Shown here: positions 1,497 through 20,344 of the stretch, in pieces
Layout of the letters: every line of letters starts with the position of its first letter
Numbering within the stretch: position 1 is the stretch's first letter
IMG/VR virus record: IMGVR_UViG_3300023184_000617
Coordinates: 1 to 20,485 of that record
DNA: 20,485 bases
Reading direction: 5' to 3' (one strand)
Source of the DNA: a virus
The notes under the pieces: generated by a model
What the model saw: the letters and a program-made list of their open reading frames with translations, nothing else
What the model was told of the DNA's origin: nothing
The model's database searches: none
Program-made: the position numbers and the translations under genes

Positions 1497-2879
1497 ATGT
1501 CAATTAGGTTCACCAATCTATTAAGAGATCTTATTGTTGAAAGTTCAAGATTTCAAGTGCTATTCGATAAGTTTGTAAAACCAAAAGAAAAGGCTAAAAA
1601 AGGTATAATGCCATTTGAAACTTTATTTGCGTTAATTGTTGCCGACCCAACAACAAAAGTTCCTAATGGTATGGATATTGATAATGTTAAACCTCAGGAT
1701 ATGGAACGAGTTAAAATCGGAAAATATGCTCAGTGGTTAATCAAAAACTTTATTATGCCTAAGTTACCGGCAGACCATCCTTTAATGATTAGTGATCCAC
1801 AATCAGGTCAATACAAACAAGCATTAAAACAATTCCAAGATCTTTTCATGGAAGACTTATATAAGGTTACAACAAACCTACAAAAGTTTGAAAGATTTAA
1901 AAATAGGTTACCACAAGAATATAGAGATATAAATAAATTAAGTGTTGAAACTTTACAAGATCAAGTTAAAGATTTTAGTTTAGAAAAAACTAAAGCAACT
2001 GCCGATGAGAAAAAAGAGGCTTCTGTAACATATGCTCATCCTGGTGCTAACATTGTTTATAAAGGTCAAGATTGGACTGTTGCTAAAATCTCAGACAAAG
2101 GCCCTTTAGGTAAAGAGGCGGCATGTTTTTATGGTGGATCTCATAATGAAGGAAGGCGAGGAGAAACTACTTGGTGTACATCATCACCTGGCCTTACTTG
2201 GTTTGATAGGTACATTGGTAGAGGACCATTATATGTTGTAATCCCAAACAAAGCGAGATCATTCAAATCTTACGGAAAAGAAACAGGTGAAGTTTCAGGA
2301 TTACCAGCAGACAGATACCAATTCCATTTCCCTGATAATCAGTTCATGGATGCTGATGACAGACAAATTAATTTAATTGAGTTCTTAAATACAAATGAGG
2401 AAGGATTGAAACAATTCTTTAAACCTGAATTTATGCAGTCATTGGCTGGCGATAAAGGTGAGAAAGTGGTTATTGATTATCCTGGTGATTCGGCGTCTAA
2501 GTTCATTGCCCTATACGGATTTGATGAGTTTTTTGCAACATTACCTGAAAGTTTAAAAAGACTTACATTTAAAAATACATCAAAAGATAAAATCTCACTT
2601 AATATTCCTAATGACATTGGAAGATTTAAACAGTTAAACGCAATCAACTTTGTTGGATGTGTGGCTTCTTTACCTGAAGCTATTTGTCAATTACAAAATT
2701 TACAATACCTATCTTTGGTAAATAATCCTGATCTTCAGATGTTACCTGAATGTGTTGGGAATATGGAAAACCTTATGGTACTAAACCTTGGAGGATCTGA
2801 TCCTAAACAAGTTCTACCTGAATCAGTATTCAGAAGAGCGGAAGAAGACGAAGACTTCAACTTATTTACACACTCTTAA
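1497..2879 (+). CDS. Leucine-rich-repeat protein with a W-C-T/GPLYV domain and a short leader
   Basis: 460 residues. The N-terminus MSIRFTNLLRDLIVESS is a short hydrophobic leader ending in IVES, comparable to leaders elsewhere in the window. Residues about 30-170 are polar, mostly helical and unrecognised. A compact central domain at about 185-290 carries GQDWTVAKI, then TTWCTSS (W226, C227), then RGPLYVVIPN starting near residue 242; I recall this W-C-T/GPLYV pattern from other phage proteins but know no function for it. The C-terminus (about 345-455) has leucine-rich repeats of the LPxxhxxLxxLxxLxhxxN type, for example SLPEAICQLQNLQYLSL and MLPECVGNMENLMVLNL. LRRs usually bind proteins. 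The next gene starts two bases after the stop, so they probably share a transcript. Role unknown; a virion or host-interaction protein is an inference. Confidence 0.85.
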   Translation: MSIRFTNLLRDLIVESSRFQVLFDKFVKPKEKAKKGIMPFETLFALIVADPTTKVPNGMDIDNVKPQDMERVKIGKYAQWLIKNFIMPKLPADHPLMISDPQSGQYKQALKQFQDLFMEDLYKVTTNLQKFERFKNRLPQEYRDINKLSVETLQDQVKDFSLEKTKATADEKKEASVTYAHPGANIVYKGQDWTVAKISDKGPLGKEAACFYGGSHNEGRRGETTWCTSSPGLTWFDRYIGRGPLYVVIPNKARSFKSYGKETGEVSGLPADRYQFHFPDNQFMDADDRQINLIEFLNTNEEGLKQFFKPEFMQSLAGDKGEKVVIDYPGDSASKFIALYGFDEFFATLPESLKRLTFKNTSKDKISLNIPNDIGRFKQLNAINFVGCVASLPEAICQLQNLQYLSLVNNPDLQMLPECVGNMENLMVLNLGGSDPKQVLPESVFRRAEEDEDFNLFTHS

Positions 2880-2881
2880 TT

Positions 2882-3508
2882 ATGAAAAACAAATTATTTT
2901 TAACTGAATCCGAAAAACAAAGAATCAGTGGTTTACACAGAATGGCAATTGCTACCGAAAGTAAAAACACCTTAAATGAGGCGACACTACAAGACATTCA
3001 AAATTTATTATCAAAAAAATTAGGACCTGAAATCTTGGGTCCAAAAGGTGCTGACGGTAGATTAGGAACATTTACTTTAAATGCTATTTATTCTGCGTTA
3101 ACTCAAACTCAGGCAGAGCCGACCAAAGTAGATCCAACTAAAGTAGACCCGGCAAAAGTAGATCCAACTAAAGTAGATCCAACTCAAGGTCAATTTAAGT
3201 TGATTGAGTTAAAAGCTGGTATGATTGGAAACGGTTTTATGCAAGATGAAGCCGAAGGTAAAACATACAAAGTTAATAAAAGTACCGCTTTACCATGTGG
3301 TATAACGGAAGTGGAATTTACAAATAAAAGGGCCACACTTGAATATGGGTATTATAAACCTAACGAAATAAAATCTGGAGACCCAACTCAAATTACTTTT
3401 AGAAGAAGCGGTGAAGGAGTCAAAGATCCTGATCCGTGTAAAAACTTTGCATCATTTGAAAATTTTGGTTACTTAGATTTCTCTGGAGACCCCAATAAAT
3501 TTAAATAA
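2882..3508 (+). CDS. Leader-bearing protein with a peptidoglycan-binding-like module
   Basis: 208 residues. The leader (residues 1-32) has the pattern LTESEKQRISGLHRMAI followed by NTLNEA, and closely matches the leader of the gene at 19349. Residues about 35-75 (LQDIQNLLSKKLG, GADGRLGTFTLNAI) fit the PG_binding_1 pattern LQxxL...DGxxGxxTxxAh, so this part may bind cell-wall glycan. A linker of four DPTKV-type repeats (about 79-101) follows. The rest (about 102-208) is an unrecognised, probably beta-rich domain with two Cys residues. The linker is encoded by near-identical 15-bp units. The gene starts two bases after the LRR gene and is closed by a strong terminator. A wall-associated or virion role is inferred from the module and leader only. 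Confidence 0.8.
   Translation: MKNKLFLTESEKQRISGLHRMAIATESKNTLNEATLQDIQNLLSKKLGPEILGPKGADGRLGTFTLNAIYSALTQTQAEPTKVDPTKVDPAKVDPTKVDPTQGQFKLIELKAGMIGNGFMQDEAEGKTYKVNKSTALPCGITEVEFTNKRATLEYGYYKPNEIKSGDPTQITFRRSGEGVKDPDPCKNFASFENFGYLDFSGDPNKFK
3116..3187 (+). repeat. 15-bp tandem repeat encoding a DPTKV linker
   Basis: Four full 15-bp units (3116-3130, 3131-3145, 3146-3160, 3161-3175) and a partial fifth encode EPTKV, DPTKV, DPAKV, DPTKV, DPTQ. The second and fourth units are identical (gatccaactaaagta). The repeat stays in frame and forms an interdomain linker. Units of this kind change number easily by slippage. Confidence 0.9.
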
Positions 3509-3572: not shown

Positions 3573-3953
3573 ATGAAACTCATTATAACCAAAGATCAAT
3601 TAAGTCTAATCAACGAAACTTATAAAAGAGATCGTTTTGATGCTGATTATGAGGAAGAATATCCACAGTATAAGAAGTTGTTTTTAAAGACAATATCAAA
3701 AGATGTTAAAGGGTGGAGCGACGGTGAATGGCCAGGATCAATATATTTGATGAATGAAAAGGGGGAACCTTTATTTGTTTATAGAAGACCATCAAGAACC
3801 TTATATTATGATTATTCAATAGATAGAGAAATGGAAGACTTCATTCCTTCTCACATAGTTTCAAGACACTTGAAAAACGCAGTTTATGATTTTTTTATAA
3901 AGTTGTTTCCTGATGTTGAAATAAAAGAGGTTAATGGTGCTAATATTATATAG
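3573..3953 (+). CDS. Leader-bearing protein of unknown function (MKxII cluster, 1st)
   Basis: 126 residues, no family recognised. The leader MKLIITKDQLSLINET has the cluster pattern MKxIIx-x-x-Q-x-x-L-I-x-E. The body is charged, rich in Asp, Glu, Tyr and Arg, and ends in a probable helix (HLKNAVYDFFIKLFPD) followed by a short strand (VEIKEV). The gene at 5204 ends with a similar helix-strand order (SSVYDLFYKLLEKYG then DVDVDLQEI), which suggests a shared C-terminal fold. It begins a tight series: the next gene starts two bases after its stop. No signal peptide or membrane helix is present. Confidence 0.75.
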   Translation: MKLIITKDQLSLINETYKRDRFDADYEEEYPQYKKLFLKTISKDVKGWSDGEWPGSIYLMNEKGEPLFVYRRPSRTLYYDYSIDREMEDFIPSHIVSRHLKNAVYDFFIKLFPDVEIKEVNGANII

Positions 3954-3955
3954 AT

Positions 3956-4357
3956 ATGAAAATAATAATATCTGAACAACAATATATAATGTTATCTGAG
4001 TCAAGATTAGATCCAATACAAAATCTTATTAACATGGCTTTTGATGAGGTAAAAGAAAATTGTGAGGGAGGTTCTTATATTAGGTCACACCGCAATTACA
4101 TATGTGACCCAATAGAAATGATTGAAGAAATAAAGGTGGTAGATGTGTCAAAAACAACCTCTATGGGTTACCTTGAAAAAAAAGAATTATCTCAAATACA
4201 TATTACCGTTGATATTCATCTTGAATCTATATATTTATTTTACGATTTAGATAATTTTATTTATCAGTTACAATGGGAAGCAAGAAACATATTAGGGGGA
4301 AGTGTTGTGTCTATATCAATAGGAGAAGTAATCAATAAAAGAAAAGAATCTAACTGA
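3956..4357 (+). CDS. Leader-bearing protein of unknown function (MKxII cluster, 2nd)
   Basis: 133 residues, unrecognised. The leader is MKIIISEQQYIMLSES. After it comes a helix (DPIQNLINMAFDEVKEN), a loop with two Cys residues, and a beta section (IEEIKVVDV, then IHITVDIHL). A helix (LDNFIYQLQWEARNIL) and a last strand (VVSISIGEV) follow. The strand-strand-helix-strand order resembles the end of the 5204 product, so the two may be divergent paralogues; a structure prediction would be needed to show it. The stop TGA at 4355-4357 overlaps the next gene's first possible ATG, giving translational coupling. Confidence 0.75.
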   Translation: MKIIISEQQYIMLSESRLDPIQNLINMAFDEVKENCEGGSYIRSHRNYICDPIEMIEEIKVVDVSKTTSMGYLEKKELSQIHITVDIHLESIYLFYDLDNFIYQLQWEARNILGGSVVSISIGEVINKRKESN

Positions 4358-4359
4358 TG

Positions 4360-4902
4360 ATGAAAATAATAATATCTGATAATCAATATAATCTTATTAA
4401 AGAATCAGTTGCTATTAAAAATATAGAGGCAATTAAAAATCATTGGAAAAACCAATTAAAGAAAGGTAAAAAAATAAGATTTGATAAAGATGATCTTGAG
4501 TATTGGGGGATTACTAAGACTTCAGATAAAATCCGAACCCAAATAGCATTTCAAGAAATAGTTGGTGATGAGGTTTTTGCTAAAAATCTTATTAAACCAT
4601 TGTTAAACAAAACATTTTCAACAAAAGATTTTAACGATAGAACTGTTGGTGGTTATGATTTTGAGTGGATAATAACTCAAATGGTATATAATGATTTTGA
4701 TTTCTATTTATATGGGAAAATTTTACCTGGTGGGTCTGTTACTCTTATGGATGGTAGGTATTTATCTTTAGATGATGCTTTAGAGGATGGGGATATGTGG
4801 TGGGAAATTGAAAGTGAAGTTAAGGATGTTGCTGAAGATTGTATGAACGAAATAATTTTACCTTTTACAGGTTATCAGGTAGAAGTGTCATTAATAAATT
4901 AG
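4360..4902 (+). CDS. Leader-bearing protein of unknown function (MKxII cluster, 3rd)
   Basis: 180 residues from the ATG at 4360, or 181 from the ATG at 4357 that overlaps the previous stop. I prefer 4360 because it gives MKIIISDNQYNLIKES, in register with the neighbouring leaders. The body has a basic helix (about 20-45), an acidic middle with WGI and DFEWIITQMVYNDFDFYLYGKI, and a conspicuous acidic stretch DDALEDGDMWWEIESEVKD before a final helix and strand (YQVEVSLIN). No family is recognised. The leader DNA (atgaaaataataatatctga) is identical over 20 bases to that of the gene at 3956, a sign of duplication or leader exchange. Confidence 0.75.
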   Translation: MKIIISDNQYNLIKESVAIKNIEAIKNHWKNQLKKGKKIRFDKDDLEYWGITKTSDKIRTQIAFQEIVGDEVFAKNLIKPLLNKTFSTKDFNDRTVGGYDFEWIITQMVYNDFDFYLYGKILPGGSVTLMDGRYLSLDDALEDGDMWWEIESEVKDVAEDCMNEIILPFTGYQVEVSLIN

Positions 4903-4910
4903 ACGAGTAA

Positions 4911-5207
4911 ATGAAAATAATAATAACAGAATCTCAAGTGGCATTAATAAGAAGGTTAAGTGAGTTAGATCAAATTCTTGATACTAATATTAAAGAATTA
5001 AATGATGATATAAAAGGTGGTGGGCCAGGTAATAAACCTGATAATTTTGGCGTTTATGAAAATTGGTTGATAAATAGAATTAAAAATGATTTTGAAGATA
5101 ATAACCCAAAGATTGAATTCCCAATCCACGATTTTAAGATGTTAGTATCAGGGCAATTTAACGATAAAATTAGGAAAGGTTTTAATAAAGTTAAAAAAAG
5201 AAGATGA
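4911..5207 (+). CDS. Short leader-bearing protein (MKxII cluster, 4th)
   Basis: 98 residues, unrecognised. The leader MKIIITESQVALIRRLSEL keeps the MKIIIxExQxxLI core but lacks the simple LIxES ending of its neighbours; LSE at 16-18 could serve the same role. The rest is polar with a GGGPG turn, a helix (YENWLINRIKNDFEDN) and a very basic tail ending KKVKKRR-like (FNKVKKRR). The last four bases overlap the next gene (ATGA), so translation is probably coupled. The small size and basic tail would suit a DNA-associated protein, but nothing proves it. Confidence 0.7.
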   Translation: MKIIITESQVALIRRLSELDQILDTNIKELNDDIKGGGPGNKPDNFGVYENWLINRIKNDFEDNNPKIEFPIHDFKMLVSGQFNDKIRKGFNKVKKRR

Positions 5208-5791
5208 AAATAATAATCACAGAAAGACAACAAAGGTTAATAACTGAAAATCTTACCGAGGAAAACCTTCGTAAGTTGTGTTATCAAATTTGGGACAAAC
5301 AAAAAAAGATAGGAGAAGAACCTCATCTTGATGATGTGATTTATGATATTTCTGGAATTAGAAAAGAAACTCGTGATGATTATGACACAATTAGACCCAT
5401 ATGGTATAGATATAATGGGGGTTTTGATAGATTATTTAAAAAACTTAAAGATGAGATTGACACTAAGGAATATAAGTTAGTTGATGATGAATTTAATTTG
5501 GAAACCAAAATAAAGGTTGTCCATCTTGATAGACAAGGACAATTTGTTGAAATTATGGTTGATGTTGATCCTCGTGGAACTATGGAATTTCATGGTTGGA
5601 ACGAAGAAACTGAGGAAGAATATGTGGTGAACGACACAATAGATGCGGGTTACCATGAGGCGTTACTTAATTATGAAGGTAGCGATTTTCAAGGAATGAT
5701 TAGAAGTTCAGTGTATGATTTATTTTATAAATTATTAGAAAAATACGGGATTCCAATTGATGTAGATGTTGACTTACAAGAAATTTATTAA
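5204..5791 (+). CDS. Leader-bearing protein of unknown function (MKxII cluster, 5th)
   Basis: 195 residues. The leader MKIIITERQQRLITEN is again of the cluster type. A middle section (about 17-85) is charged with LRKLCYQIWDKQKK and RPIWYRYNGGFDRLFKKL helices. The C-terminal part has paired strands (IKVVHLD, FVEIMVDVDP), an acidic loop, a helix (SSVYDLFYKLLEKYG) and a last strand (VDVDLQEI). That end resembles the products at 3573 and 3956. No enzyme motif is seen. It closes the uninterrupted run of five coupled genes 3573-5791 and overlaps the preceding gene by four bases. Confidence 0.75.
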   Translation: MKIIITERQQRLITENLTEENLRKLCYQIWDKQKKIGEEPHLDDVIYDISGIRKETRDDYDTIRPIWYRYNGGFDRLFKKLKDEIDTKEYKLVDDEFNLETKIKVVHLDRQGQFVEIMVDVDPRGTMEFHGWNEETEEEYVVNDTIDAGYHEALLNYEGSDFQGMIRSSVYDLFYKLLEKYGIPIDVDVDLQEIY

Positions 5792-6928: not shown

Positions 6929-8173
6929 ATGAAAAAAAATACAAATAGATTATACACGGAAGGCATTTCCAAAAAAGACTTATTAAGACTTATGGAAGCA
7001 CCTATTGACTACGAAGGACCTGAAAGAATGGCTGGAGATGTTGAGAGAAAAATTACAGGAAAAGAAACCCCGTATCATGGATTCCCTGCAATTCCAAATA
7101 TGGATAGAGACTTTATTGAGTTAATATCTTCAAAAAGATTCAAGGACTCAGTTGATAAAGTTAGAACGGCAATGGGGGACACAAGAACAATCCAAGGATC
7201 AAATGCACTTATGCAATTGATGGGAACAGTTGGTCAGGCAATGCAAAAACTTGTAATGATACAATCACAAAATAAAGAGGTACTTGAAAACTTAGCGATT
7301 GAACTTGTTAGAAATGAGTTAGGTATTCCTGATGATGCAATGCAATTCAAAGCCGAACTTGTGGGGCAACCTATGGGAGCGGCAGAAGGGATGCAAAGTG
7401 AGCCTGAAATGCCAAGTGAAGAAGAGGTTGAAGAATTAATGGGTGATATGGAAAACTTTAATTTGGAAAGAGAAAAAAGAAGATTCATTAATTCACTTAT
7501 TCAAGGTGCGGCTTTTAAAGGAGGACACATGTATAATCTTGTTAAAAATGAGATCAATGATATTAATCCACAACTTATGAACCTATATGCTGTCACACAA
7601 TCTTTAATGGAACATGCATATTGGATATTTCCTAACATGGAAGGAATGGCAGGTGGCGGTGGTGGTCAAATGGGACAATCAGAAGTTGATGAAGAAACAG
7701 ATCCACCAACAGTTAAAGCTAAGGCGGTTACATTTCCGTTGTTGGTTCACGAATTAGTTAAAGGTGTTTATGAAATATTTGGATCACACGGATTGCCTGA
7801 TGACCCAAGACAACAAGAAATGATATTAAACGCTGAAGACACTTTACCTTCAGAAATTTGGGATTCAAGACTTGGTCCTGTATTTTGGGAAAAGTTTATG
7901 GCATCATATCCCATGGAATTGTTTGATGAAGACAAAAAACATATACAACATTACTTATTTATGCGATTCTCGGCATTAAACGCGGAAGAGTTTATGAGGG
8001 TTGCAAAAATGATTCTTAGTGGAGATCCTAAAGGACAACAATTTATTCAAAGAATGGTTGATGACATTATTAAAGAATTAAAAAATCAAGAATACCGTGA
8101 TGCTATGGGAGATGAGGATGATGACGATGGCGATGATTTGAGTGGGATTGATTTTAGTGATTTGGGACTTTAA
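6929..8173 (+). CDS. 414-residue phage protein, probably structural, with acidic tail
   Basis: I start it at the ATG at 6929, one base after the previous stop; earlier TTG/ATG codons at 6899-6902 would overlap that gene by 26-29 bases. The first residues (TNRLYTEGISKKDLLRLMEAPID) contain a hydrophobic helix ending LMEAP, like the other leaders. The body is mostly helical, rich in Met, Glu and Gln, with a GGGGG-type loop (AGGGGGQMG, about residue 240-250) and conserved-looking segments such as FPLLVHELVKGVYEIFG and SRLGPVFWEKF. The tail is GDEDDDDGDDLSGIDFSDLGL. No catalytic motif, signal peptide or membrane helix is present. I believe similar proteins occur in large uncultured phages, but I cannot name a family. 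A terminator overlaps its stop. Confidence 0.8.
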   Translation: MKKNTNRLYTEGISKKDLLRLMEAPIDYEGPERMAGDVERKITGKETPYHGFPAIPNMDRDFIELISSKRFKDSVDKVRTAMGDTRTIQGSNALMQLMGTVGQAMQKLVMIQSQNKEVLENLAIELVRNELGIPDDAMQFKAELVGQPMGAAEGMQSEPEMPSEEEVEELMGDMENFNLEREKRRFINSLIQGAAFKGGHMYNLVKNEINDINPQLMNLYAVTQSLMEHAYWIFPNMEGMAGGGGGQMGQSEVDEETDPPTVKAKAVTFPLLVHELVKGVYEIFGSHGLPDDPRQQEMILNAEDTLPSEIWDSRLGPVFWEKFMASYPMELFDEDKKHIQHYLFMRFSALNAEEFMRVAKMILSGDPKGQQFIQRMVDDIIKELKNQEYRDAMGDEDDDDGDDLSGIDFSDLGL

Positions 8174-9506: not shown

Positions 9507-9851
9507 ATGGAAAAATTTAAACACGAAGAACAATTTTTAAAAAATTTAACTGAAAGAACCAAAGAGATGTTCTCAATTATGGGATTAACTGATGGTCACA
9601 ATTTATCACCATCAGAATTAAAAAACAGACCTAAGTTTACCGAGTATTTTTCTGATTCAGTACAATTTTCCGATGGAATTAGTAACTCAGAATCGATTTA
9701 TGTGTATGATGAAAACATTTACATATATTTATCTAAAAGTGATCCGATGATCTCTTCTTTTTCTTGTAAAATTTATTATCCTATAAGAAAGAAAAAAGAT
9801 GTTGAATTTTTTATATTAAACTTAAAAAAAATGAAAAAAAATGGAAATTAA
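9507..9851 (+). CDS. Small protein of unknown function upstream of thioredoxin
   Basis: 114 residues starting MEKFKHEEQFLKNLTERTKEMF, taking the ATG at 9507 because the earlier in-frame ATG at 9477 lies in the terminator hairpin. A helical N-terminus is followed by a beta-rich part (YVYDENIYIYLSKSD, then CKIYYPIRKKKDVEFFIL) and a Lys/Asn tail. No family is recognised. The end overlaps the thioredoxin start by 11 bases, so the two are translated from one message. No promoter is clear behind the terminator. Confidence 0.68.
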   Translation: MEKFKHEEQFLKNLTERTKEMFSIMGLTDGHNLSPSELKNRPKFTEYFSDSVQFSDGISNSESIYVYDENIYIYLSKSDPMISSFSCKIYYPIRKKKDVEFFILNLKKMKKNGN

Positions 9852-10155
9852 TAGTGTTGAATTACAACAAAAAATTAATCAAGGAGAAAAGTTAATGGTT
9901 GAATTTTGGGCAGAATGGTGTGGTCCATGTAAAATGATGAAACCAATCTTTGAAAAAGTTGCGTCCTCAAACCAATCAGATGTTAAAATGTACACATTAA
10001 ATATTGATAACAATCATGAGATTGCGGTTTCTTTAGGTGTTAGAAGTATACCTACGATTAAAATGTTTAACTCAGGTCAGGTGGTTCAAACTAAAGTTGG
10101 TTTTATTAATGAATCTCAAATAAATCTATTAGTAACAGAATTAATCAATGGATAA
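9841..10155 (+). CDS. trxA: Thioredoxin
   Basis: 104 residues, the length of classical thioredoxin. The active site W26-C-G-P-C30 lies in VEFWAEWCGPCKMMKP, and the cis-Pro loop is S-I-P71-T. The order (beta strand, WCGPC helix, NIDNNHEIAVSLGVRSIPT, final GFINESQI) is canonical. Thioredoxin reduces protein disulfides; in phages it usually serves ribonucleotide reductase or acts as a polymerase processivity factor. It overlaps the glutaredoxin gene by eight bases, so the two redox proteins are co-produced. No reductase gene is in the window, so the phage would rely on the host thioredoxin reductase or on one encoded elsewhere. Confidence 0.95.
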   Translation: MEINSVELQQKINQGEKLMVEFWAEWCGPCKMMKPIFEKVASSNQSDVKMYTLNIDNNHEIAVSLGVRSIPTIKMFNSGQVVQTKVGFINESQINLLVTELING

Positions 10156-10435
10156 ATTAGCAATACTTTTTACAATGAAAAGTTGTCCCCATTGTCAAGA
10201 TTTTAAAAAAATGCTTGATGAGGCAGAATTAGATTATATTGAAAGAGACATTTACGAATATGAGGAAGAATATAATCTGTTTGTTGAGGCAACTGATAAT
10301 GAATTTGTTCCCGCATTTATGTTGATTGAAAATCCTGAAAGCAAAAAACCGTTAACTGAGTTATTTGCTCCTGACCGAGATTTTGAAGACATTGATCAAG
10401 GACTTAACATAATTAAAGAATTTTACGAAAGATAA
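10148..10435 (+). CDS. Glutaredoxin-like protein
   Basis: 95 residues. The N-terminus AILFTMKSCPHCQDFKKML carries the dithiol motif C13-P-H-C16 directly after the first strand, as in glutaredoxin and NrdH. The cis-Pro is in EFVPAFMLI (P55). Between them an acidic helix (YEYEEEYNLFVEA) replaces the more usual basic helix. The C-terminus is a helix (GLNIIKEFYER). The likely role is to reduce ribonucleotide reductase or other disulfides. The CPHC site differs from the CPYC of classic glutaredoxin. It lies downstream of, and overlaps, thioredoxin, and ends in a bidirectional terminator. Confidence 0.86.
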   Translation: MDKLAILFTMKSCPHCQDFKKMLDEAELDYIERDIYEYEEEYNLFVEATDNEFVPAFMLIENPESKKPLTELFAPDRDFEDIDQGLNIIKEFYER

Positions 10436-12678: not shown

Positions 12679-13893
12679 ATGTCAATAAAGAAGTTTTTTA
12701 AAAATTATATTGTAGAACAAGATGAAAACCTTGTTTCAATTTCTCCTGAGGATTATTTGGAATTATTAGAAAATGTTGGAGGAATTGCAGAAAGAATATC
12801 AAACCTAAAGCCGTATAGAGGTAAGGGAATTGTTATTACTGGACCACTAAGTGTTACTGGTTATAAAAATATTGGACCACTTACAGGAGTTGTAAGAGTA
12901 ATGGGTAGGTTAGACATTTCTCATACCAATATTTCAAACCTTAATGGTATTACAATAGATGGTTATGTTAGTGATTATGGATCTTCTATGTGGAAGATAA
13001 AAATGCAAAAAGAGTTAAATGAAAAACTTTCCAATTTGGATGAAAAAAGAAGAGAAGATGAATGGAATGTTGAAAACCAAGATGATGAATCTGAAAGAAC
13101 TGAAGCTGTATACAAATATTTAAATCAATATGGTGATGTGGATATGGTTGAAGATGACGAAGGAAATGAAGTTCCTGAAGATAAGTATTATATCAATCCT
13201 AATGGAAGGGCAACCTATGGTTACGGAAAACAATATGAATGGTTAGGGGGTGGTAATGGGTTTAACCCTAATACCTATGATGTTTATACTGAAGATGAGG
13301 TAGATAGTGCCGCAAGACAATATGTTGAACAATTAATTGATGATTCAGGAATGGAGGCGTTTAGTTCTTGGGCATTCAATGACGCTTTAGATGATAAACA
13401 ATGGTATCGTTGGTTATATGATTACTACGATGATTATGTTAGATCATCTCCTGAGGATTTTGATATACCTTTAGAACTATCAAATCAACAAATGAAACAA
13501 GTTCAACAACTACAATCAAACATAGATTCACTTAATAAAAGATTAGAAAGTGAAAATTTACCTGATGAAAAATTTGAAGAAATTGAAACAAAAATTGAAG
13601 GATTGGAAGAAATAATTCAAGAAATCAATGATGACCCACAAGGTGAATATGATGAAAGTTCAATTGAAAATGAAATTACAGGTAGAGTTGATGAGTACCA
13701 AAACGACATTTTTGGGTTTATTGATCATCATGGTTCTGATAAAGACTTTATCATGGATTTTATTGATTTAGATAAACTAACGGAAACGGTAGTAAGTTCT
13801 GACGGATATGGTAGTATGTTAAATTCTTACGATGGTGATTATGATACTTTTAATATAAATGGAACTGAGTATTATGTAATGAGGGTCAATTAG
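12679..13893 (+). CDS. LRR-like and coiled-coil acidic protein with a leader
   Basis: 404 residues. The leader MSIKKFFKNYIVEQDE resembles that of the LRR protein at 1497 (MSI...IVE). Residues about 50-95 (GIVITGPLSVTGYKNIGPL, then VVRVMGRLDISHTNISNLNGI) look like short leucine-rich or beta-solenoid repeats. A long charged middle follows, with NPNGRATYGYGKQYEWLGGG near 170-195 and WYRWLYDYYDDYV near 240-255. A coiled coil lies at about 268-318 (Gln, Leu and Glu heptads). The end is acidic, DGDYDTFNINGTEYYVMRVN. It may be a virion or interaction protein, judged by leader and repeats. A weak AGGG/CCCT hairpin at its stop may terminate it. Confidence 0.8.
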   Translation: MSIKKFFKNYIVEQDENLVSISPEDYLELLENVGGIAERISNLKPYRGKGIVITGPLSVTGYKNIGPLTGVVRVMGRLDISHTNISNLNGITIDGYVSDYGSSMWKIKMQKELNEKLSNLDEKRREDEWNVENQDDESERTEAVYKYLNQYGDVDMVEDDEGNEVPEDKYYINPNGRATYGYGKQYEWLGGGNGFNPNTYDVYTEDEVDSAARQYVEQLIDDSGMEAFSSWAFNDALDDKQWYRWLYDYYDDYVRSSPEDFDIPLELSNQQMKQVQQLQSNIDSLNKRLESENLPDEKFEEIETKIEGLEEIIQEINDDPQGEYDESSIENEITGRVDEYQNDIFGFIDHHGSDKDFIMDFIDLDKLTETVVSSDGYGSMLNSYDGDYDTFNINGTEYYVMRVN

Positions 13894-14825: not shown

Positions 14826-15947
14826 ATGAAAATTAAATTGGAATATGTGTGGTTAGATGGATATAAACCAGAACCTAACCTCAGAAGTAAAGTTAAGATT
14901 GTTGAATACAATACAGTTAAAAACGCATTTTTAGATGGGAATTTTCCTATGTGGAATTTTGATGGATCATCAACTAACCAAGCTAAAACTGGAAACTCAG
15001 ATCGTATTTTAAAACCTGTTAGACATTATATGAAAGACATTTCATCAACGGTTTATGTTTTATGTGAGGTATTAAATCATGACGGGTCACCACACGAGTC
15101 AAATAAAAGATCAAGTATTGGTGAAGGTTTTGAAGATCTTTGGTTTGGTTTTGAACAAGAGTATTTTATTCGTGAAGAAATTAATGGGAATATTTTAGGA
15201 CATAAAAGAAATAGCCTTAAAGGACAAGGTGAGTATTATTGTGGTGTGGGACATAATGTTGTTGGTCGTAAGTTTGTTGACGAACATACAAATATGTGTT
15301 TAGATTATGGTATTAATATTACAGGAACAAACGCTGAAGTTGCGTTAGGTCAGTGGGAATATCAGATATTATCTAAAGGTAAGTTAAAAGGAGGGGACGA
15401 TCTTTGGATGACTCGTTATTTCTTACACAAAGTTGTTGAAAATTATGGTTACCATATTGAACTTCACCCAAAACCAATTCAAAATGGTGAATGGAATGGA
15501 TCAGGTCTTCATACAAACTTCTCAACAGACATTATGAGACTTGACGGGGATGAAGAATACTTCATGGCACTACTCAACGCATTTGAATCAAGGCACAATG
15601 ATCACATTAAAGCTTATGGTTCTAATAACAATCTAAGATTAACTGGGGAGTATGAAACTCAGGCAATTGATAAATTCAGTTGGGGTGTATCTGATCGTGG
15701 AGCGTCAATTAGAGTTCCTCAGGACACAGCAAAAGAATGGAAAGGATATATTGAAGATCGAAGACCAGGGTCAAATGCTGATCCTTACAAGATCATTCGT
15801 GAAATTGTTAAATCACTTGATGTTACACAACAAATATACGATACAAAAAATATGATGACCTCATTTGTTGATATGGATGGTCTTAATGGGAAATACGGAA
15901 CAATGCCCAACGATGAGTTATTAAAAGAATATAGAGAAGAAGAATAA
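14826..15947 (+). CDS. Glutamine synthetase, type II (GSII)
   Basis: 373 residues, the normal length for GSII. It makes glutamine from glutamate, ammonia and ATP in the cytoplasm. All main signatures are present and in order: WNFDGSST (43-50) in the beta-grasp region, GFEQEY (E110, E112) for metal binding, TGTNAEVALGQWEYQI, GSGLHTNFST (H229), SWGVSDRGASIRVP (R291), and YIEDRRPGSNADPY (E310, R312). Deviations from the usual motif, such as Phe for Tyr in WNYDGSST and Leu for Cys in GxxHTN, are mild, so it is probably active. GSII is typical of eukaryotes and some bacteria including Bacteroidota; a phage copy would be an auxiliary metabolic gene, acquired from a host. It would supply glutamine for nucleotide synthesis. 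It overlaps DUF3310 by one base. Confidence 0.93.
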   Translation: MKIKLEYVWLDGYKPEPNLRSKVKIVEYNTVKNAFLDGNFPMWNFDGSSTNQAKTGNSDRILKPVRHYMKDISSTVYVLCEVLNHDGSPHESNKRSSIGEGFEDLWFGFEQEYFIREEINGNILGHKRNSLKGQGEYYCGVGHNVVGRKFVDEHTNMCLDYGINITGTNAEVALGQWEYQILSKGKLKGGDDLWMTRYFLHKVVENYGYHIELHPKPIQNGEWNGSGLHTNFSTDIMRLDGDEEYFMALLNAFESRHNDHIKAYGSNNNLRLTGEYETQAIDKFSWGVSDRGASIRVPQDTAKEWKGYIEDRRPGSNADPYKIIREIVKSLDVTQQIYDTKNMMTSFVDMDGLNGKYGTMPNDELLKEYREEE

Positions 15948-16546: not shown

Positions 16547-17398
16547 ATGATAGAAACAGGAAAAATTATAAATGGAGATTGTATTGAGGTAATGAAAACT
16601 TTACCTGAAGGTAGTGTTGATTTGGTTGTTACATCACCACCATATAATTGTGGGATTAAATATGATATGCACATCGATAACTTACCTATGGACCAATATT
16701 GGAGTTGGACAAGAGAATGGTTAACAGAAACTTACCGATTGATTAAAGATGACGGTAGAGTCTCAATTAATATTCCTTACGAAGTAAATGTTCAAGATAG
16801 GGGAGGTAGAGTATTTTTTGTTTCAGAATTTTATCAAATAATGAAAGAAGTTGGATTTAAATTCTTTGGAATTGTGGATTTAGAAGAAGATTCTCCCCAC
16901 AGAAGTAAGACAACCGCATGGGGATCTTGGATGAGTCCGTCTAGCCCTTATATTTATAACCCTAAGGAGTGTGTAATATTAGCGTACAAAAACAAACACA
17001 TTAAGAAAATAAAAGGTCAACCTGAATGGAAAGGTGAATCAACTGAAATTGAAAATGAAGATGGGACAAAAAGAAATAAAATGGTTTATAGGGAGAATGA
17101 TAAAAAAGAGTTTATGGAACTTGTTTTTGGTCAGTGGAATTATTTTGCTGACACTAAATCTCTTACTAAGGCAACCTTCTCAATGGACATTCCAACAAAG
17201 GCGATTAAGATATTGTCCTACAAGAACGATTTTATACTAGATCCTTTTTGTGGTAGTGGAACATCTATGGTTGCGGCAGAAATATTAGACCGTAGATGGT
17301 TAGGAATTGAATTAAGTCCTAACTATTGTGATGTTGCAAGAGGTAGAGTTCAGACTTTTGTTGATGAAAAAAAACAAGTTAAAATAGATTTATTTTAA
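16547..17398 (+). CDS. Site-specific DNA methyltransferase (N4-cytosine or N6-adenine, beta class)
   Basis: 283 residues. Motif order is that of the beta class: catalytic motif IV TSPPYN (29-34) comes first, and the cofactor motif I DPFCGSGTSMVAA (from residue 232) lies near the C-terminus, followed by LGIELSPNYCDVARGRV. The N-terminus INGDCIEVMKTLPEGSVDLVVTSPPYN is typical of the N6_N4_Mtase family. The SPPY form is more common in N4-cytosine enzymes, but adenine specificity cannot be excluded. No restriction endonuclease follows. The stop overlaps by two bases the stop of the convergent DUF192 gene. With the D12 enzyme at 616, two classes of methyltransferase are encoded here. Confidence 0.92.
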   Translation: MIETGKIINGDCIEVMKTLPEGSVDLVVTSPPYNCGIKYDMHIDNLPMDQYWSWTREWLTETYRLIKDDGRVSINIPYEVNVQDRGGRVFFVSEFYQIMKEVGFKFFGIVDLEEDSPHRSKTTAWGSWMSPSSPYIYNPKECVILAYKNKHIKKIKGQPEWKGESTEIENEDGTKRNKMVYRENDKKEFMELVFGQWNYFADTKSLTKATFSMDIPTKAIKILSYKNDFILDPFCGSGTSMVAAEILDRRWLGIELSPNYCDVARGRVQTFVDEKKQVKIDLF

Positions 17399-17750: not shown

Positions 17751-18167
17751 ATGAAGAAGTTTAGAAGAAGTGCTGGTGTCATTCTTAAATATGGGGATGA
17801 GGTTTTACTCTGTAAAAGAGGGCCAAAAGAAACATTACCAAACATTTGGTCAATACCTGGTGGTGGTATAGAAAATAGTGAATCGCCAGGTCAAGCCGCC
17901 ATAAGAGAATTTCACGAAGAGACCAATATTGAGATTGATACCAATTTAGATCTTGTTGGTATTATAGACAACTTTAATGATGACGGAACAAAAAGAGGAA
18001 TGATGTTTGTATTTTTACAAAATATTAAAGACAAAAAAGAACCCGATTTAGATAGTGCAACTCATGGACATGAACACACATCATGTAAGTATTTTAAGTT
18101 AGATGACATACCAAAACAAAAAGAAGTTGACCAACTTTATGATATTATTAAAAAAGTTTTGAAATAA
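17751..18167 (+). CDS. Nudix hydrolase
   Basis: 138 residues. The Nudix box GX5EX7REUXEEXGU is present as G38-x5-E44-x7-R52-E53-F-H-E56-E57-T-N59-I, with the usual Gly replaced by Asn at position 59. The catalytic REXXEE glutamates and Arg are kept, so hydrolysis of a nucleoside diphosphate derivative (NDP-X) is likely. The N-terminus RRSAGVILKYGDEVLLCKRGP and LPNIWSIPGGG are typical of the MutT/ADP-ribose branch. Substrate cannot be told: it might sanitise nucleotides, process NAD or cap-like metabolites, or act in RNA decapping. It diverges from DUF192 by only 14 bases. Confidence 0.93.
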   Translation: MKKFRRSAGVILKYGDEVLLCKRGPKETLPNIWSIPGGGIENSESPGQAAIREFHEETNIEIDTNLDLVGIIDNFNDDGTKRGMMFVFLQNIKDKKEPDLDSATHGHEHTSCKYFKLDDIPKQKEVDQLYDIIKKVLK

Positions 18168-19348: not shown

Positions 19349-20344
19349 ATGAAAAATAAATTTACATTAAAAGAAGGTGAAATCCAAAGAATTTTAGGGT
19401 TACACAAACAAGCGATTTTAAAAGAAAATAAAATAATCCTATCGGAGGTTTATAAACTTTCACTTATTTCAGCCGAAGGATATAATTCAGGAATTGCACC
19501 TAAAACATGGGGTTTAAAAACATTTAAAGTATCAAAAAAAAATGGTGACATTTTAAAAGTTACGGCAGTAGATTCGGATGGTACACAATTTGAAAATATT
19601 CAGATTAATTGTAAAACCAAAAATATTTTAACGATTAAAAGTGATGGGGCGGGTACAATTGCGGACCAAGTAAATGGTACGACATACAAACCTGGAAGTG
19701 ATTTAACGGAACTTATTACTAAATCTTGTGATGGGTCAAAAAAATCCAACGAAGGGTCAAGTAGTGTAGGTGGTAATTATAAACAACTAAGACAACAAGA
19801 TTTTGCACCAATGCCTGGTGGTAAAAACAAGGGGTCATTCAGTACACCTAAAGATATTATATGGAAAAAAACAGGTGACAAAGGGGCCGTTACAAAAAAG
19901 GCAGGACAGGGTAATATAGGATTTTTATGTGCTGGTTATTTATCACCTAAAAAAGTCGCTTATAATTTTATGTACGACAAAACATGGTATAGAAATAAAG
20001 AATTAGGTTCTGTTTTAAGAAAACGATTTTGTGGGTCTAAAACGGAAACAGATGATAATAAGGTTGATGGGACTAGTGAATACAAAAATGGTGAAAACCC
20101 CCAAAAAAACCCCAAAGTTAAAGGTAACAGATATACTTTTGATTTTGATACAATTATGAAGGCAATTAACGATACAGGAAAATGTGCCGGATCTTGGGGT
20201 TCATCCGATGGAACAAACGGTACAAGTGGGACTCAAGGAACTTCAGGGACTCAAGGAACTTCAGGAACAAATGGAATTCAAAATCCGTTACCAATTAGTA
20301 ATAAAATATCAAAAGAACTCTATTATAAAATAATAGCACCTTAA
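19349..20344 (+). CDS. Leader-bearing protein with a GTSGTQ repeat tail
   Basis: 331 residues. The leader MKNKFTLKEGEIQRILGLHK then ILKENKIILSE is close to that of the gene at 2882 (shared MKNK, xExExQRIxGLHxxAI). A beta-rich part (about 35-130), YKLSLISAEG and FKVSKKNGDILKVTAV, follows with two Cys residues. A basic middle (RQQDFAPMPGGK to LRKRFCGSKTE) has segments FLCAGYLSPKKVAYNFMYDKTWY. The tail near residue 288-309 is GTNGTSGTQGTSGTQG-type repeats, which in Bacteroidota phages often occur as flexible linkers of fibre-like proteins. A surface or virion role is inferred. A terminator follows. Confidence 0.8.
   Translation: MKNKFTLKEGEIQRILGLHKQAILKENKIILSEVYKLSLISAEGYNSGIAPKTWGLKTFKVSKKNGDILKVTAVDSDGTQFENIQINCKTKNILTIKSDGAGTIADQVNGTTYKPGSDLTELITKSCDGSKKSNEGSSSVGGNYKQLRQQDFAPMPGGKNKGSFSTPKDIIWKKTGDKGAVTKKAGQGNIGFLCAGYLSPKKVAYNFMYDKTWYRNKELGSVLRKRFCGSKTETDDNKVDGTSEYKNGENPQKNPKVKGNRYTFDFDTIMKAINDTGKCAGSWGSSDGTNGTSGTQGTSGTQGTSGTNGIQNPLPISNKISKELYYKIIAP
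20210..20275 (+). repeat. 9/18-bp repeats encoding GTSGTQ
   Basis: The DNA encodes GTN-GTS-GTQ-GTS-GTQ-GTS-GTN-G, with two consecutive copies of an 18-bp unit (ggg act caa gga act tca). It is in frame and low in complexity, typical of slippage-prone linkers. Confidence 0.88.

Follow-up and report, generated by a model that had tools for sequence, protein, structure and literature searches.

The window, by which we mean the whole stretch of DNA analysed here, is an entire IMG/VR record of 20,485 bp and represents a fragment of a large T4-type phage. Between positions 3573 and 5791 it contains five closely packed genes, separated by gaps of 2, 2 and 8 nt and finally by a 4-nt overlap, whose products begin with the common leader MKIIITExQxxLIxE. 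All five open reading frames exist at the coordinates listed below, with the N-termini that an earlier note on this stretch had quoted. The claim of that note, namely five coupled genes carrying one leader on unrelated-looking bodies, held and turned out to describe only a small part of a larger phenomenon. In the list, as throughout the text, an arrow marks the putative cleavage position.

3573..3953, + strand: leader gene 1, 126 aa; leader MKLIITKDQLSLINE (residues 1-15, 3573-3617); inferred cut INE↓T
3956..4357, + strand: leader gene 2, 133 aa; leader MKIIISEQQYIMLSE (3956-4000); inferred cut LSE↓S
4360..4902, + strand: leader gene 3, 180 aa; leader MKIIISDNQYNLIKE (4360-4404); inferred cut IKE↓S
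4911..5207, + strand: leader gene 4, 98 aa; LIRR leader variant MKIIITESQVALIRRLSE; possible non-canonical cut LSE↓L at 4964
5204..5791, + strand: leader gene 5, 195 aa; leader MKIIITERQQRLITE (5204-5248); inferred cut ITE↓N

The gene at 4360 has an additional in-frame ATG at 4357. Four of the five leaders end at a canonical (L/I)xE, the non-canonical one being that of 4911, which lacks E15 and whose closest (I/L)xE is LSE at residues 16-18, followed by Leu. Leaders related to this variant (LIRR/LLRR) also occur on other body families. Searches of the five bodies against Pfam and PHROGs yielded no significant match. Among named phages there was neither a match at the DNA level nor a tblastn match to the 20-aa consensus leader.

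Relatives of the window were retrieved via its gene at 6932 and are fragments of large phages of up to 292 kb. Being related, these phages are not independent samples. With a 15-column leader profile and a cut-off score of ≥15 for gene starts, all five window leaders scored ≥26, compared to −1.4 for the best internal methionine of the window. The cut-off was reached by 5 of 34 gene starts in the window, 12 of 334 in G003 (272,576 bp) and 15 of 352 in G006 (291,867 bp), but by none of the 2,585 internal methionines of these three records (maximum 7.9). A DNA pattern of the leader was found in at least 119 stretches of IMG/VR, but in 257 Gb of bacterial and archaeal genomes it occurred three times only, two of these occurrences being internal to longer open reading frames and the third matching no leader open reading frame. 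A looser pattern gave 67 matches in 11 viral records and its reversed control none. The glutamine at position 9 is kept in 99% of the leaders.

The earlier note had also listed 20 identical bases in the leaders of 3956 and 4360, and had offered duplication followed by divergence as one alternative to leader exchange. The identity of same-amino-acid codons among paralogous leaders (0.56-0.68) is close to the 0.56 expected from codon usage. A recent duplication is thus not needed for the 20 bases and is ruled out by this codon test as the source of the leader identity. Q9, I/L13 and E7 are conserved among the very leaders whose synonymous codons are near chance.

The leader type of the window (class A) heads at least 43 body families in about 3 Mb of related DNA, counted as single-linkage clusters of 234 distinct complete proteins. 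When leaders and bodies were aligned separately, only the leaders matched between the families tested. With hhalign the families of 4360 and 3956 align over residues 1-16 only, those of 3956 and 3573 over residues 1-22 only, and profile comparison of the bodies without leader gave a probability of ≤1.7% in all six pairs of four families, the 4911 family not being included. The claim that the sequences differ after residue 16 to 20 was therefore confirmed, four of the bodies being unlike each other. Among the leader bodies are an ECF sigma factor (PF04542, 4e-13; PF08281, 1.5e-16), a SleB-type wall hydrolase (PF07486) and phage lysozymes with or without LysM, while DHH and SprT-like domains were matched only weakly. 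The ECF sigma gene is located at L175:8108-8668. When 115 representatives drawn from several leader classes were scanned, acetyltransferase and other families were added to these, with few members matching anything.

In a structural model of the 4360 product (mean pLDDT 78), residues 1-6 are predicted as low-confidence coil and residues 7-34 as helix, so that the first 16 residues are not predicted to form an integral strand of a common fold, an outcome which the earlier note had named as one that would refute it. The predicted helices and strands follow the same order in the bodies of 4360 and 5204, and it therefore appears possible that these two are distant paralogues from an old duplication. 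A Foldseek search of the 4360 model against the PDB returned nothing at E ≤ 0.001. In the viral library BFVD, the only one in which a model of the fusion protein G006_256740 (see below) was searched, both models matched the uncharacterised phage protein A0A6J5L577, and neither obtained a named match; which domain of the fusion is responsible is unresolved.

Leader and body are separable in both directions. Switches of leader class were observed in up to 10 body families, for example class A on G009_79290 (MKIIISERQQKLIKE↓NS) and class C on G001_61488 (MKIIRLTESDLTNIVKKVIKE↓NS), which share one body, or class A on the family of 3573 and class D on its homologue at L198:4766 (MKNLIRKILKEE↓T); an exchange between classes A and D also occurs in the DHH family. 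Leaderless homologues (L131, L172, L196) were found at 81-93% identity. A body without its leader had been named by the earlier note as a second refuting observation. It was indeed found, yet it shows that the body is independent of the leader and fits an add-on tag. The idea of leader exchange, with new bodies attached to one tag, is thus supported by the number of body families, the class switches and the leaderless homologues.

Bodies known from single genes were also found fused. G006_256740 consists of a leader, a 5204 body, the junction ...YGINE↓NTQK... and a 4360-type body, the second leader being absent. In this protein as well as in L157_1449 the 5204 body is the first and the 4360 body the second domain, and the 4360-type body is preceded by INE↓N or INE↓S without a leader. 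In the fusion model the leader has a pLDDT of 52-77, the first domain is predicted with confidence, and the second one follows after a junction that is disordered (residues 188-209 below 50). A fusion is also encoded at L076:16740-17852. Longer chains, namely G003_243199 (1,018 aa), G012_23349 (904 aa) and G006_244713 (531 aa), are built from modules known as stand-alone leader proteins, with LNE↓S, INE↓S and sites of this kind between them, while L181_3165 (995 aa) contains two internal copies of a class-A-like leader. Near distinct internal module starts, [IL]xE was present in 19 of 25 cases (null 5.9) and [IL]xE[SNA] in 14 of 25 (random positions 1.4); the reversed motif, with 9 of 25 (null 6.1), was not significant. 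This test replaces an earlier breakpoint test on full-length alignments (target sites at 19 of 35, 6.5 expected), as such alignments often begin inside the leader. No peptidase exceeded the Pfam cut-off in the leader proteins scanned, although the longest chains were not scanned individually; weak SprT-like and Reprolysin-like matches were seen in L159_1855 and L181_3165.

(I/L)xE is a weak motif, lone sites are unconvincing, and only the statistics carry weight. An [IL]xE ends at residues 13-19 in 22 of 32 leader proteins, compared to 1-4 of 32 in control windows; the 10 without a canonical site there include the LIRR subclass with 4911. In scaffold and core proteins the residue after [IL]xE is Ser or Asn at 45 of 106 sites, against a background of 600 of 4,204 (p = 4e-12), and the leader sites share this preference (16 of 36 with one vote per body family; p = 1.4e-5). 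Genome-wide, [IL]xE is enriched at N-termini 1.8-2.6-fold in G003, G006 and G012, more weakly in G016, G017, G007 and the Flavobacterium phage immuto, and slightly or not at all in G008 (1.13-fold), whereas the reversed motif showed no significant enrichment at N-termini in the same scan. We estimate the excess at about 32-63 genes in G003, G006, G016 and G017. The density of [IL]xE[SN] alone flags scaffold and core genes and one polyprotein, a signal that is weak after multiple testing. The propeptide of the major capsid protein has conserved [IL]xE sites within its first 60 residues and ends with LINE↓A at residue 60, its counterpart in T4 gp23 being LTE↓A at 65.

The window record contains neither head genes nor a protease. 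Both are encoded by larger relatives: G003 has a T4-type head cluster with major capsid protein (phrog_138), S77 protease (phrog_207), portal (phrog_213) and terminase TerL (phrog_2), and Peptidase_S77 (PF03420; E values about 1e-22 to 1e-26) was detected in 11 of 26 relative records, among them all four with ≥250 kb. One S77 protease gene lies at L059:4046-4774. Peptidase_S77 was not found in the leader-bearing records G014 and G015 (208 and 214 kb), which are possibly incomplete. The head cluster of G016 includes a leader gene, positioned between the protease gene and a core gene. Within the head cluster of G003 a gene on the opposite strand (185278-185532) looks bS21-like by eye, a layout that has been reported for bS21 phages infecting Bacteroidetes (PMC9723584). 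As the assignment depends on this match in layout, Bacteroidota-type hosts can only be inferred. Two further arrangements were observed in the relatives: a leader-body family (ISLKEKL..) has at least seven copies in G016 (78977, 166712, 239222-242671 and 283644 among them), partly in tandem and with one in the head cluster, and in a dense cluster of G003 (231640-238341) leader genes of classes A and C alternate, their bodies being unlike.

The sequences themselves establish that one leader precedes unlike bodies, that it is exchanged and lost, that sites recur at junctions and that the site preference is shared with head core proteins. The most likely explanation, to which we assign a probability of roughly 0.8, is that the common leader serves as a propeptide which targets proteins to the capsid and is then cleaved off; both packaging and cleavage are inferences, as neither proteomics nor localisation data exist for these phages. 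The body would be translated together with its leader, whose conserved MKIIITExQ and short helix would dock the protein to the prohead core during assembly. The S77 prohead protease of the phage would then cut after (I/L)xE and thereby release the body inside the maturing head; ejection of the body together with the DNA would follow. With recognition and cutting confined to about 15 residues, bodies could be acquired, could swap leaders or could be linked head-to-tail in chains whose junctions carry a cleavage site. Recognition of and docking to the prohead core, ejection and the function of any cargo are likewise inferences. The targeting tag proposed in the earlier note is well supported by the protease-site evidence as far as a virion or prohead destination is concerned, but it has not been shown directly.

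Several other explanations have to be considered. It appears unlikely that the leader docks proteins on a phage structure other than the head core (tail, baseplate or an intracellular phage compartment), with (I/L)xE being part of a docking helix. The missing localisation data leave room for this idea, lysozymes and a wall hydrolase, which are often tail-located in other phages, are among the bodies, and the conservation of Q9 goes beyond what cleavage alone requires. Against it, the Ser/Asn preference of the leader sites is that of scaffold and core proteins, leaders of unrelated classes share their terminal motif and replace each other on a given body, and the site is kept at internal junctions, where most of the leader has usually been lost. 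Similarly improbable is a leader that targets proteins to the prohead where most of them remain uncut, (I/L)xE being incidental outside core proteins. In T4 an Asp at position 10 of the capsid-targeting sequence (CTS) blocks processing and not targeting (PMC9026906), and the LIRR subclass has no canonical site; the position and P1' preference of the leader sites and their retention at fusion junctions nevertheless speak against targeting without cutting.

We consider it very unlikely that the N-terminus is integral to one common fold whose bodies are paralogues diverged beyond recognition. The shared order of secondary-structure elements in 4360 and 5204 and the match of both models to A0A6J5L577 are in favor of this view, which may still hold for that pair only. 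In general it is largely refuted: a single fold for all bodies is ruled out by the clearly different folds of ECF sigma factor, lysozyme and SleB hydrolase and by the body-only profile comparison, and neither the close leaderless homologues, nor the unrelated leaders on the same body, nor a leader modelled as low-confidence coil and helix fit with it. Just as improbable, and already contradicted, is a similarity at the nucleic-acid level, be it a recent gene conversion or a gene start whose A/T-richness and lack of structure would favour translation in the SD-poor Bacteroidota. ATA is indeed enriched among the Ile codons of leaders (65% vs. 43% at other gene starts) and ATGAAAATAATAATA is exactly common to three gene starts, but the near-chance synonymous codons next to conserved Q9, I/L13 and E7 are not compatible with this explanation.

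The capsid-targeting propeptide has its closest known parallel in the T4 CTS, which heads IPI, IPII, IPIII and Alt and is cut by gp21; both the L/I-x-E rule and the targeting role of the CTS have been reviewed (PMC9026906). Here as there, a short common N-terminal propeptide ending in L/I-x-E precedes different mature parts (T4 IPII and IPIII share MKTYQEFIAE↓A on different bodies), and a gp21-family (S77) protease and a gp23-type major capsid protein are encoded in the same genomes, in our case as far as the larger relatives show, the window being a fragment without head genes and G014 and G015 giving no S77 match. By inspection, however, there is no sequence likeness beyond MK and xE. The leader would therefore work like the T4 CTS by functional analogy, and common descent is not shown. 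Unlike T4 with its four internal proteins, the large genomes have 12-15 class-A genes each, and the excess of genes with an N-terminal site is estimated at 32-63 in four of the genomes; they use at least two abundant leader classes and smaller ones, prefer Ser/Asn at P1' where T4 has mainly Ala, and contain polyprotein-like chains and a cargo with ECF sigma factor and wall hydrolases. T4 has thus set the precedent, and what is new are the scale, the several interchangeable leader classes and the polyprotein-like chains.

Other known systems share single traits. The head propeptides of SPN3US and phiKZ are cut by S77-family proteases (gp245 and gp175) with Glu at P1, gp245 of SPN3US prefers Ser at P1', and two of the N-propeptides are short, with 20 and 24 residues (PMC10052503). 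Most propeptides there are, however, long (111-254 residues) and protein-specific, and no single short leader extends across many bodies. In phage P1, the N-terminal 30 residues of DarB suffice to bring a reporter into the capsid (PMC9024508), but the Dar proteins have no consensus and no leader common to many proteins. The so-called polyvalent proteins (Iyer et al. 2017) have several domains, and packaging and early delivery have been predicted for them; their authors compare them to polyproteins (PMC5512222). Chained modules were found here as well, and their delivery with the DNA is only inferred. For polyvalent proteins release by embedded peptidase domains has been proposed, whereas the present chains have putative prohead-protease sites at their junctions and exchangeable leaders on stand-alone versions.

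A bolder reading, which is compatible with the data and to which we give slightly less than even odds, is a system that tags, packs, cuts and injects. Interchangeable leaders would admit dozens of unrelated proteins per virion, some as chains cut inside the capsid by the prohead protease, and the cargo would include wall hydrolases, acetyltransferase- and DHH-type enzymes and an ECF sigma factor pre-loaded to redirect the host RNA polymerase at once. Already under the main explanation, the packing and trimming of labelled proteins would allow the virus to exchange the proteins that it delivers to its host. If true, a 15-residue motif marks candidate injected proteins in poorly annotated large Bacteroidota phages, most of them without a recognised domain, so that it could be tested from sequence which of the phage proteins are carried into the cell along with the DNA. 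It would also provide natural cases of polyprotein cargo cut within the capsid, point to a virion-packaged sigma factor and offer a tag that can be appended to proteins in order to load them into phage heads.

Another abundant leader, MKKIIRLTESDLTRIVKRVIKE, stands at the start of about 50 more proteins. A broader count of 481 proteins in 152 clusters can only be taken as an upper figure because the class-D regular expression gives false positives (53 of 8,550 internal methionines); the 43 class-A body families are the solid count. For the class-C motif, no text match was found in the literature searched. The window contains further candidates outside the tandem genes:

1497..2879, + strand: other-class leader candidate, MSIRFTNLLRDLIVE↓S ahead of an LRR-containing protein (LRR matches); cut from the motif only
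2882..3508, + strand: class-B leader candidate, MKNKLFLTESEKQRISGLH..., with TLNE↓A downstream; cut inferred
6932..8173, + strand: conserved protein whose N-terminal segment ends LLRLME↓APIDYEGPERM; cut inferred
12679..13893, + strand: leader gene candidate, MSIKKFFKNYIVE↓QDEN; cut inferred
19349..20344, + strand: class-B leader candidate, MKNKFTLKEGEIQRILGLHKQAILKE↓N; cut inferred

Two of these have homologues with class-C leaders, namely gene 6932 in G016 (ending KIINE↓APIDYDGPERM) and gene 12679 in G008 (MKKVIKLKESDIHNIVSILLE↓QDDD). Phage immuto (L249-L252), which is isolated and culturable, has at least four genes that begin with a shared leader of its own, MENFDLKKFLVE↓N..; three of these lie between 103.8 and 118.9 kb, just ahead of the head genes.

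Several otherwise different leader bodies contain a Trp/His-Cys motif (TTWCTSSPG, SWCVSRS, SICTMAG, GHCGRSG) and, after it, a Tyr-rich region (window 1497-2879; L161:3303-4751; L170:8678-9832; L147:3407-4963), and window gene 1497 and L170_8678 also have YQFH and then QFM in common; this may possibly be a widespread cargo domain. A second recurring module, ..VVHKSNPKFRDKIMENGL..PAIFATNS.., is present in L139:3919-4527, G003 243199-246255, G012 23349-26063 and G006 244713-246308. By eye it resembles an ADP-ribosyltransferase, which would parallel T4 Alt, and Pfam gave no support for this in L139_3919. Also judged by eye, the remainder of the window includes a glutamine synthetase-like gene (14826-15947), two DNA methyltransferase-like genes (616-1455 and 16547-17398), a thioredoxin/glutaredoxin-like pair (9841-10435) and a NUDIX-like gene (17751-18167).
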